A stretch of DNA of 64,000 nucleotides from Truepera radiovictrix DSM 17093 (lineage in GTDB: Bacteria > Deinococcota > Deinococci > Deinococcales > Trueperaceae), in contig NC_014221.1 of assembly GCF_000092425.1 (NCBI RefSeq), positions 2,237,001 through 2,301,000 on the forward strand, read 5' to 3'. The notes beneath the pieces were generated by a model. The model searched no databases and had not been told where the DNA came from. It saw only the letters and a program-made list of their open reading frames with translations. The stretch's first letter is position 1; every line of letters begins with the position of its first letter. The position numbers were made by a program, and so were the translations under genes. Positions 59,869 to 63,495 of this stretch are shown here, one piece after another.

Positions 59869-60804
59869 GTGCCGCTATTTTCACGCTCAGATGACAAACT
59901 CTTCGCCGTAGCGCAGACCAACTTCGCTACTGAGAAAGAGCTACAGAAACTCGTCGAGAACAATTTAGCAGCCATTTTCAACTGTCGTTTGGTTGCCTCT
60001 GAGTTCTCTACGGGTCAACAACACGCGGGGCGCATCGACACCCTTGGGCTCTCCGAAGACAACAACCCTGTCATTATCGAGTACAAAAAAGTCGAGTCTT
60101 CTGCACTTATCACACAGAGCTTGTTTTATCTCTCATGGATTCAAGACCACAGGGGCGACTTTGAGATTGCAGCGCAAAAAGCCCTAGGTAATGACACCAA
60201 GGTAGATTGGTCGGACATACGCGTCATCTGCCTCGCACCGAACTACAACAGATACGATCTACACGCTGCTCAAGTCATCGGCGGAAGCATAGAACTGTGG
60301 ACCTATCGACTCTTCGATAATCAAACGATCTACTTTGAAGAAATTTTACAAAAAGCTTACGCGCCCCCAGCCGTAACCGAAACCGCTTCCAGACATTCGG
60401 TTGCGACGACCGTCGGCAAAAAAACCATGCTGACGAGACCGTCTGCAAGCTACACCTTTGAAGAGCACTTGAGCGGTAAGTCTCAGGAAATTCGAGACCT
60501 GGCTTATGCGGTTCAAGACTTCGTCATGGGCCTTGACGCTGCCATAGAGGAGGCGCCCAAAAAACTCTACGTGGCGTATCGTATCTCGCAAAACATCGTC
60601 TGCATGGAGGTTCGAAAAAAGCATCTTGCCCTCTACCTCAAATTGGATCCCCGCGAGGTCTCTGGTCCGCCAGGAATCTCTAGAGACGTGAGTAGAATCG
60701 GCCACTTCGGCACGGGCGACTTGGAGATCATTGTCAAGTCACCCGCTGACCTCGAGGCAAGCAAACCCTTTCTTGAACTTGCCTACCGCAGAGTTGGAGG
60801 ATAG
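59869..60804 (+). CDS. NucS/DUF91-like plus DUF5655 protein, lower GC, probably acquired
   Basis: A 311-residue protein. Residues 1-150 look like a restriction-endonuclease-like fold: GRIDTLGLSEDNNPVIIEYKK has the Asp, Glu and Lys of a PD-(D/E)XK site, preceded by a helix (EKELQKLVENNLAAIF). Residues 190-311 match DUF5655 (EIRDLAYAVQDFV, KLYVAYRISQNIVCMEV, LDPREV). Such proteins are found scattered in genomes and may act on DNA or in defence; no role is shown. GC is clearly below that of its neighbours and AT-ending codons are common. The GTG follows TAAGCT by 5 nt. Confidence 0.78.
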   Translation: MPLFSRSDDKLFAVAQTNFATEKELQKLVENNLAAIFNCRLVASEFSTGQQHAGRIDTLGLSEDNNPVIIEYKKVESSALITQSLFYLSWIQDHRGDFEIAAQKALGNDTKVDWSDIRVICLAPNYNRYDLHAAQVIGGSIELWTYRLFDNQTIYFEEILQKAYAPPAVTETASRHSVATTVGKKTMLTRPSASYTFEEHLSGKSQEIRDLAYAVQDFVMGLDAAIEEAPKKLYVAYRISQNIVCMEVRKKHLALYLKLDPREVSGPPGISRDVSRIGHFGTGDLEIIVKSPADLEASKPFLELAYRRVGG

Positions 60805-60808
60805 CCAA

Positions 60809-60837
60809 TTGACTTTGCGCCCCCGCGCGACTACCAT
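60809..60837 (+). promoter_or_regulatory. Promoter of the leuS leader
   Basis: TTGACT (60809-60814), 17-nt spacer, TACCAT (60832-60837). The first start codon (ATG 60844) is 6 nt after the -10, so the transcript would begin at this ATG. Confidence 0.8.
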
Positions 60838-60843
60838 ACGCTT

Positions 60844-60891
60844 ATGCCCGTGGCAACAAACCTCCTACAACTAGGTGGGCCGAGGCGCTAG
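60844..60891 (+). CDS. leuL-like: Leucine-rich leader peptide of leuS
   Basis: ATG to TAG, 15 residues: MPVATNLLQLGGPRR. Leu codons CTC CTA CAA CTA stand at positions 7, 8 and 10; CTA should be scarce in this GC-rich genome. It would be read from a leaderless mRNA. The bases just after the last Leu codon (60874-60881) can pair with the left arm of the terminator downstream. It is unrelated in sequence to the known leu operon leaders, as far as can be seen. Confidence 0.65.
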   Translation: MPVATNLLQLGGPRR

Positions 60892-60911
60892 CGCGTTCGC
60901 TGCTGCCTTGT

Positions 60912-60939
60912 GGCCCTAACCGCACGGTTAGGGTTTTTT
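60912..60939 (+). terminator. Attenuator terminator in the leuS leader
   Basis: CCCTAACC (60914-60921) and GGTTAGGG (60926-60933) form a perfect 8-bp stem on a 4-nt loop (9 bp if the loop closes to 2 nt), followed by TTTTTT (60934-60939). It is 49 bp before leuS. The alternative pairing of GGTGGGCC (60874-60881) with GGCCC-TA-ACC (60912-60921) would prevent it from forming. Confidence 0.85.
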
Positions 60940-60949
60940 CTTTGCCCGT

Positions 60950-60978
60950 TTGCGGTTGTAGAGACCGTCAACTAGAGT
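60950..60978 (+). promoter_or_regulatory. Possible second promoter of leuS
   Basis: TTGCGG (60950-60955), 17-nt spacer, TAGAGT (60973-60978), after the attenuator. It could give basal leuS expression that escapes attenuation. Confidence 0.4.
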
Positions 60979-60987
60979 GGAGACGTT

Positions 60988-63495
60988 ATGACGACCCAAC
61001 CCGAGGTGAGCTCGAGCGCCCCTTACCGCTCCGAGCGCTATAACCCGCAGGAGATCGAGCCGAAGTGGCAGGCGCGGTGGGCCGAGCTGAAGCTCTATGA
61101 GACCGACCTTGAGAGCGACCAAGAGCCCTTTTACTACCTGACGATGTTCCCCTATCCGTCGGGCGACCTGCACATCGGCCACTGGTACGCTTTCTCCATC
61201 CCCGACGCCTACGCCCGCTTTAAACGCATGCGCGGCCTTAACGTCCTCTTCCCCATGGGATTTGACGCTTTCGGGTTGCCCGCCGAAAACGCCGCCATCA
61301 AGGCCGCCCGTCAGGGGGGGAGCGTTCACCCCGCCACGCTCACCTACGAACGCATGGCCCACATGGAGCGGCAGTTCGCAAAGATGGGCGCCTCGTTCGA
61401 CTGGTCCAAAAAGGTCGTCACCTGCGACCCCGGTTACTACCGCTGGAACCAGCTCTTTTTCCTCAGGATGCTGGAGCGCGGCCTCGCCTACCGCAAGGCG
61501 TCCTTTGTCAACTGGGACCCCGTCGACCAGACGGTGCTGGCCAACGAGCAGGTGGTGAACGGACGCGGGGAGCGCTCCGGCGCGCTCGTCGAACGCCGCT
61601 TGATGCCGCAGTGGCACTTTAAGATCACCGCCTACGCCGAGGAGCTCTTAGACTTCTCCGGGCTCGACTGGCCGGAGAAGGTCAAACTCATGCAGACCAA
61701 CTGGATCGGCCGCTCCGAGGGCGCCGAGGTGCGCTTTAAGACCGAAAGCGGCGACGAGCTCGTCGTCTTTACCACCCGCCCCGACACCCTCTGGGGGGTG
61801 ACCTTTATGGTGCTCGCCCCCGAGCACCCGTTGGTCGAGAAGCTGACCACGCCGGAGCAGCGCGAGGCGGTCGCGCGTTACGTGAAAGCCGCCTCGCACC
61901 TCAGCGAGATCGAGCGCCAGGCGACCGACAAGGAGAAGACGGGCGAGTTTACGGGCGCCTTCGCCATCAACCCCGTCAACGGCGAACGCGTCCCCATCTG
62001 GATCGCCGACTACGTGATGATGGGTTACGGTACCGGCGCCGTGATGGCGGTGCCCGCTCACGACGAGCGCGACTTCGCCTTCGCTCGAGCCTTCGGGCTG
62101 CCCGTCAAACCGGTGATCGCCGCCTCAGAGGGCGCCGAGGTAGACGGTGAAGCGATGACCGAAGCCTATACGGGCGACGGCGTGATGGTCAACTCCGGCC
62201 CCTTCGACGGGACCCCGACCGGCAAGGGCACGCCGGAGGGGATCCACAAGGTGATCGCCTGGTTGGAAGCGAAAGGCAAGGGCAAGGGCACTGTCACCTA
62301 CCGCCTGCGCGACTGGCTCATCTCGCGCCAGCGCTACTGGGGCACCCCCATCCCGGTGCTCTACTGCGACCGGTGCGGCTTGGTCCCCGAGCGCGAGGAG
62401 AACCTGCCCGTCTTGCTCCCCGAAGACGTCGCCTTTATGCCCACGGGCGAGTCGCCTTTAAAGCACCACGCGGGCTTTTTGAACGCGACCTGCCCGTCGT
62501 GCGGCGGCCCCGCGCAGCGCGAAACCGACACCATGGACACCTTTGTCGACTCGTCGTGGTACTGGTTCCGCTACCTCTCCCCCGACCTGCAAGACGCCCC
62601 CATCGACCGGCAGCGGGCGCGGCGCTGGACCCCCGTCGACCAGTACACCGGCGGTATCGAGCACGCGATCTTGCACCTCCTTTACGCCCGCTTTTTCACC
62701 AAGGTGCTCCGCGACCTGGGTTTCGTCGACGTCGACGAACCCTTTAAACGGCTGCGCAACCAGGGGATGATCCTGGGCGAGGACAACGAAAAGATGTCCA
62801 AGTCGCGCGGCAACGTGGTCAACCCCGACGACCTCGTCGCCGAGTACGGCGCCGACACGGTGCGCGCCTACCTGATGTTTATCGGGCCGTGGGAGGCGGG
62901 CGGCCCCTGGAGCAGCACCGGTATCGAGGGCGTCGCGCGCTTTTTAAACCGCGTCTGGGCGCTGCTCACCGAGCCGGTCGAAGCTACCGGGGGCGACCCG
63001 GAGACCCGTAAAGCGCTGCGCCGCGCCGTGCACCACGCCATCAAGGAAGTCACCGAGGACTTAGAGGCCTTCGGCTTCAACACCGCCGTCGCCGAGCTGA
63101 TGACGTTGACCAACGCCATGAGTCGGGCCAAACCCGCCCTCGCTGGAACGGACGTCTGGGAGGAGGCGACCGAAGCCCTGTTGCTGCTCCTCGCCCCCAT
63201 CGCCCCGCACCTCGCCGACGAGCTGTGGGAGCGCTCCGGCCGCGCGGGTTCGGTGCACCAGCAAGTCTGGCCGACCCCCGACGAGGGCGCCCTGGTGCAG
63301 GACACGGTGACGATCGCGGTGCAGGTGAGCGGCAAGCGGCGCGGCGAGGTCACGGTGCCCAAAGGCGCCGACGACGCGGCCGTGCTGGCCGCCGCCAAAG
63401 CGGAGCCCAACGTGGCGCGGCACCTCGAGAACGCGCAGGTGGTGCGGGAGATCGTGGTGCCGGGGCGGCTCGTCAACATCGTCGTGCGCAAGTAG
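60988..63495 (+). CDS. leuS: Leucyl-tRNA synthetase
   Basis: Charges tRNA-Leu. An 835-residue class Ia enzyme. HIGH appears as [11 protein letters not shown] near residue 60, the editing domain (CP1) has the family [11 protein letters not shown] and VPAHDERD, and KMSKS is exact ([14 protein letters not shown]). The ATG follows TGGAG. Its leader region has a promoter, leader peptide and terminator, so expression probably rises when charged tRNA-Leu is short. The tRNA-Leu(GAG) gene is elsewhere in the window. Confidence 0.97.

Follow-up and report, generated by a model that had tools for sequence, protein, structure and literature searches.

The leuS gene of Truepera, a member of the Deinococcota, is preceded by a short leader that is highly likely to be a ribosome-mediated transcription attenuator, matching the output of leucyl-tRNA synthetase to how fully the CTA-reading tRNA is charged. 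Within this leader, CTA would very probably act as the gauge by which RNA polymerase either stops or continues.

The window analysed here is a stretch of 64,000 nucleotides from a genome of 3,260,398 bases in a single contig, and all leader features lie on its forward strand. A -35 hexamer, TTGACT (60809-60814), is followed after 17 nt by a -10 hexamer, TACCAT (60832-60837), which ends 6 nt before the ATG of a predicted leaderless leader-peptide ORF, MPVATNLLQLGGPRR (60844-60891), of 15 codons with a TAG stop codon at 60889-60891. TTGACA-like hexamers are kept at 17-18 nt in the f1, f2 and f5 relatives, and the -10 hexamer has the form TANNNT, like the -10-adjacent motif described for the phylum (PMC12340547). 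The leucine codons of the ORF are CTC (60862), CTA (60865-60867) and CTA (60871-60873); the CAA codon that the earlier note had listed with them encodes glutamine. At a distance of 20 nt from the leader stop codon lies an intrinsic terminator (60912-60939) with the stem GGCCCTAACC/GGTTAGGGTT, whose stem-loop occupies 60912-60935, whose T run occupies 60934-60939 and whose 9-bp core is calculated at -14.3 kcal/mol. A check of the sequence found TTGACT-17-TACCAT-6-ATG, the stop codon and the stem-loop with its six T residues just where that note had placed them. Further downstream, a Shine-Dalgarno-like GGAG (60979-60982) precedes leuS itself (60988-63495, ATG at 60988), which encodes a leucyl-tRNA synthetase of 835 aa (NCBIfam TIGR00396 leuS_bact, 1012 bits against a cut-off of 548). 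On the other side, a gene at 59869-60804, with a C-terminal DUF5655 domain, ends 4 bases before the -35 box.

T-boxes control leuS in Firmicutes, and two (ile and gly) have been reported in D. radiodurans (PMC2494555), raising the question of whether leuS might here too be under a T-box or some other known riboswitch, with the small ORF arising by chance. At the gathering threshold of Rfam, the only matches in the window are tRNAs. At a relaxed threshold, the region 60780-61020 yields nothing T-box-like and no leucine leader, only unrelated sub-threshold families. The absence of a T-box reported from the first inspection is thus confirmed for T-box and other relevant Rfam families. With the T-box reading refuted at the level of sequence families, and only about 100 nt available from start to terminator, control by such an element is hardly credible.

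Taken alone, promoter-like and terminator-like sites occur at chance level, with 1 found versus 0.6 expected for the former and 6 found versus 5.2 expected for the latter. The combination TTGAC-18/19-TANNNT-5/7-ATG, on the other hand, occurs nine times in the Truepera genome versus zero times in the reversed control. Across the class, leuS upstream regions were searched for TANNNT followed at 5-9 nt by a start codon (ATG or GTG) that opens a CTA-containing ORF of 5-45 codons. This leader series is present in 69 of 88 distinct regions. Among outgroup leuS regions, most of them from Chloroflexota, 1 of 78 has it, and the background rate is 3.05% in dinucleotide-shuffled sequences and 9 of 415 in other parts of the class loci. 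A single relative of the same genus, an uncultured Truepera, is part of the comparison. A distance of 6 nt between the -10 hexamer and the start codon is kept in 55 of the 69 leaders, a terminator-like hairpin is found in 66, and the leader ORFs range from 7 to 41 codons in length. The least variable spacing is that from stop codon to terminator, with a standard deviation of 4.2 nt versus 18.8 nt for the distance from start codon to terminator end, which fits a ribosome at the stop codon covering the antiterminator. Sequence comparison establishes the leader ORF with its CTA, as well as the spacings, the terminator and the alternative helix. The earlier proposal that leuS is controlled by stalling on leucine codons gains support from the same comparison, in that the leuS leaders of relatives share with Truepera the distance from -10 to ATG, an in-frame CTA, the stop-to-terminator spacing and an alternative helix.

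Short leader genes near start codons have been proposed to act in ribosome loading in many phyla, including Deinococcus-Thermus (PMC4833913), and the uORF might accordingly do no more than load ribosomes or permit re-initiation and so raise leuS translation, with a hairpin that is incidental or ends an upstream transcript. The distances considered there are about 10-11 bp, whereas the leader stop codon and leuS are separated by 45-173 nt in the class, with the terminator in between. Ribosome loading also leaves the in-frame CTA and the steady stop-to-terminator spacing unexplained, and as the sole function of the uORF it is quite improbable in comparison to attenuation.

The leuS leader is absent in about one fifth of the class, including genera g12 and g16 and some other genomes. 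Loss of the leucine codons with the promoter retained, which had been named at the outset as an argument against attenuation, does occur in a few lineages but not generally: upstream of leuS in L012 and L014, promoter and hairpin are retained around an ORF without CTA, representing either a decaying or a retuned copy. At L082, a tRNA gene, probably for tRNA-Leu by sequence, lies directly upstream of leuS in place of the missing leader. A search of plasmid DNA for relatives of the leader gave no match.

An SD-like sequence precedes the start codon in only 8 of the 69 leuS leaders, extending to relatives the missing Shine-Dalgarno sequence that the earlier note had stressed in Truepera. This feature is to be expected rather than exceptional, because leaderless starts are ordinary in the phylum: about 30% of its ORFs have a TANNNT box some 6-7 bp ahead of the start codon (PMC12340547). 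The element is real and conserved, its leaderless part is less new than it looked, and its breadth, its specificity for a single codon and its second locus are more novel than first judged.

When leader ORFs upstream of leuS were chosen without asking for CTA, this codon appeared 90 times in frame versus 4 and 4 times out of frame, while the other leucine codons of the same ORFs showed no frame preference (34/39/29). CTA is rare, accounting for 4.5% of leucine codons in the long ORFs of the window and about 1-2% in the LeuS genes of the class. Judged by this comparison, the regulatory codon of the leuS leaders is CTA. For the enteric leu attenuators, CUA as the leucine-sensing codon has been predicted, tested and explained by selective charging (PMC1183508). 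Among the f1 leuS leaders, where the CGA-CTA pair is strongly over-represented, CGA stands directly before CTA in 11 of 21; counting all leuS leaders, CTA follows 12 of 17 CGA codons. A CGA may make the codon after it slower to decode. As a general sensing unit, CGA-CTA was rejected, given that Thermus has AGG-CTA and others differ too. In the phylum of L125 (Acidimicrobiia), uORFs with CTA lie right after a -10-like box upstream of leuS (L212, L214-L217, L219, L220, L222 and L223). Mostly these carry CGA CTA directly before the stop codon and mostly they are without a U-run terminator; perhaps they represent a related but different leucine sensor.

Four of the nine TTGAC-18/19-TANNNT-5/7-ATG sites in the Truepera genome precede short ORFs, one of which is the leuS leader. 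A second (G000:C1:2383572) opens the ORF MVYRPAPDAVRVTLSLLQGRCFTGAVAA with two CTA codons, followed by a terminator and then by a LeuC-like protein, which we take from its sequence to be LeuC. In a search that did not ask for CTA, a leader of the same kind was found at 26 of 30 leuC loci of the class (L240-L269), with an in-frame CTA in all 26 and CTA counts by frame of 36/1/3. Genera g12 and g16, in which the leuS leader is absent, keep the leuC leader. Many of the leuC leader peptides contain RRRLRVIQ or a close variant before CTA. At a further locus, L205 (G000:C1:1512524), a short leaderless-like ORF, MITRWLWPARGCCGEPS, lies just upstream of a longer frame that appears aminotransferase-like by eye.

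As conservation in the leuS leaders is specific to a codon, CTA, rather than to an amino acid, the stall could sense something besides leucine supply, for example an antibiotic, or Mg2+ or SAM by way of the m1G37 modification of tRNA-Leu(UAG). Loss of m1G37 has been reported to stall ribosomes (PMC8384417). Against this, CTA is common to the leaders of leuS and leuC, both of them leucine genes, and theory and experiment alike make CUA the most leucine-sensitive codon in enterics (PMC1183508). Sensing of a signal other than leucine is accordingly very unlikely, and an attenuator that responds to leucine is preferred.

For this attenuator, we infer the start site, the translation and the leucine response as follows. 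Transcription would start at or beside the A of the leader ATG, and a ribosome would initiate on the bare 5′ end and translate the short ORF. With charged tRNA-Leu plentiful, the ribosome would reach the stop codon, which lies about 20 nt upstream of the terminator, and cover the 5′ strand of the antiterminator, allowing the terminator to form. With CTA read slowly, the ribosome would be held upstream and the antiterminator would capture the terminator's left arm, letting RNA polymerase proceed into leuS.

In Truepera, the antiterminator 5′ strand, GGTGGGCCGAGGC (60874-60886), is defined by folding with the stretch to 60921, the right terminator arm being absent. This fold is calculated at -25.8 kcal/mol, compared to a shuffled mean of -20.1 (z -2.1). 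The helix of 60874-60881 with 60912-60921 that the earlier note had described does exist, with GGGCC (60877-60881) pairing with GGCCC (60912-60916) and GGT (60874-60876) with ACC (60919-60921) around a two-base bulge. It would, however, be hidden by a ribosome stalled on the last CTA (60871): in a ribosome-state model that assumes a footprint extending to 12 nt beyond the A-site codon, the cover would extend to about 60883, over the whole 8-base helix and most of the antiterminator 5′ strand. In the same model, part of that helix would stay free only if the ribosome stalled at CTC or at the first CTA (60865); a stall at the first CTA would leave GGCCGAGGC for the antiterminator, making this the likelier regulatory codon.

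Over 66 leaders, each folded to the left terminator arm, the antiterminator is stronger than in shuffled sequences (mean z -1.32). Pairing with a leader's own arms is also stronger than with arms swapped between families (-8.9 versus -6.1 kcal/mol), a test that is weak within f1. In the ribosome-state model, the left terminator arm of these 66 leaders is paired upstream with a probability of 0.61 for a ribosome at the first CTA versus 0.24 at the stop codon, with 44 leaders shifting in the expected direction and 2 in reverse. The corresponding values for Truepera are only 0.33 and 0.23. Equilibrium energies were rejected as proof of a switch in Truepera, where the balance is unchanged between states (9.8, 9.6, 9.5 and 9.5 kcal/mol). 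The mechanism is held to be likely in Truepera because of the family and the parts, not because of the window's own energies.

The leaders of the f4 genera include those of Thermus, and the LeuS of L048 matches crystal entries of T. thermophilus-type LeuS (1h3n and others) far above any other; the species of 1h3n is presumably T. thermophilus. The Thermus leader is an ORF of 8 codons with a single CTA, encoding peptides such as MSPARLIP and MRPARLAP. Its balance between antiterminator and terminator is calculated at +1.1 kcal/mol for a ribosome at CTA, +15.6 at the stop codon and +14.5 without a ribosome. Moving the modelled ribosome between CTA and stop codon would thus shift the balance by about 14 kcal/mol, in 21 of 21 leaders. 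These values suggest a logic as in trp, in which a stalled ribosome would give read-through, and a terminated ribosome or an untranslated leader would give a stop. By calculation, the switch appears strong in Thermus and weak in Truepera. In 19 Thermus leaders, pairing of the helices is kept in 92-98% of cells. The compensatory changes suggested at the outset as a check amount to one in the pre-emptor helix, which in Thermus would form when no ribosome is present, and none in the antiterminator, the sequences being too alike for such changes.

In combination, the two loci suggest an old leucine regulon of the Deinococcota, consisting of leaderless attenuators that read one rare codon, CTA, at the unlinked leuS and leuC genes. 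In Thermus, this device would have been reduced to an ORF of 8 codons, just one of them a sensing codon, and a terminator whose stem ends about 69 nt after the predicted start. We consider this regulon, with its reduction in Thermus, moderately probable. If the reduction is true, ribosome loading on the bare 5′ end must take place with RNA polymerase only tens of bases ahead.

Attenuators of leuS were predicted in 2005 in Streptomyces coelicolor and S. avermitilis (PMC1262725), and in S. lividans TK24 the leader LeuL2, MRAVRLLLSEPR, before leuS is transcribed leaderless (PMC8079986). The Streptomyces leuL2-leuS arrangement resembles that of the Deinococcota in its leaderless short ORF containing leucine codons, followed by a hairpin with a U stretch and then by leuS (PMC8079986; PMC1262725). 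Three genomes with an exact or near-exact LeuL2 peptide have TACCCT-6-ATG and a terminator, with the codons CTT CTG CTT and no CTA. Streptomyces belongs to another phylum and uses a CTT CTG CTT run, whereas the Deinococcota use CTA almost exclusively, with a single CTA in 8 codons in Thermus.

The enteric leuL leader is longer and carries a Shine-Dalgarno sequence. It shares with the leaders described here CUA as regulatory codon and a stall-dependent choice between antiterminator and terminator (PMC1183508), but the enteric element controls biosynthesis and the Deinococcota one the synthetase, and no Rfam leucine leader is matched here. Other leaderless attenuator uORFs in actinobacteria, namely the mycobacterial polycysteine ORFs and trpL1 and ilvL of S. 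lividans, likewise begin at the 5′ end of their transcripts (PMC8079986; Canestrari 2020 as cited in PMC13236596); these differ in amino acid, gene and phylum. The -10-adjacent leaderless genes of Deinococcus-Thermus share the TANNNT spacing but are ordinary protein genes, and neither leuS nor attenuation is mentioned in their description (PMC12340547). No paper on leucine attenuators in Deinococcota was found in the open-access literature searched.

The leuS leader would amount to a simple leucine sensor in a phylum that includes model thermophiles and radiation-resistant bacteria. Ranging from 7 to 41 codons and from one to three CTA codons, these leaders form a natural series in which to explore the lower size limit of a ribosome-timed attenuator. 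In addition, they would provide an independent test of selective-charging theory, according to which CUA should be the best codon for sensing leucine in E. coli, and would make it testable how leaderless initiation without a Shine-Dalgarno sequence keeps pace with RNA polymerase.
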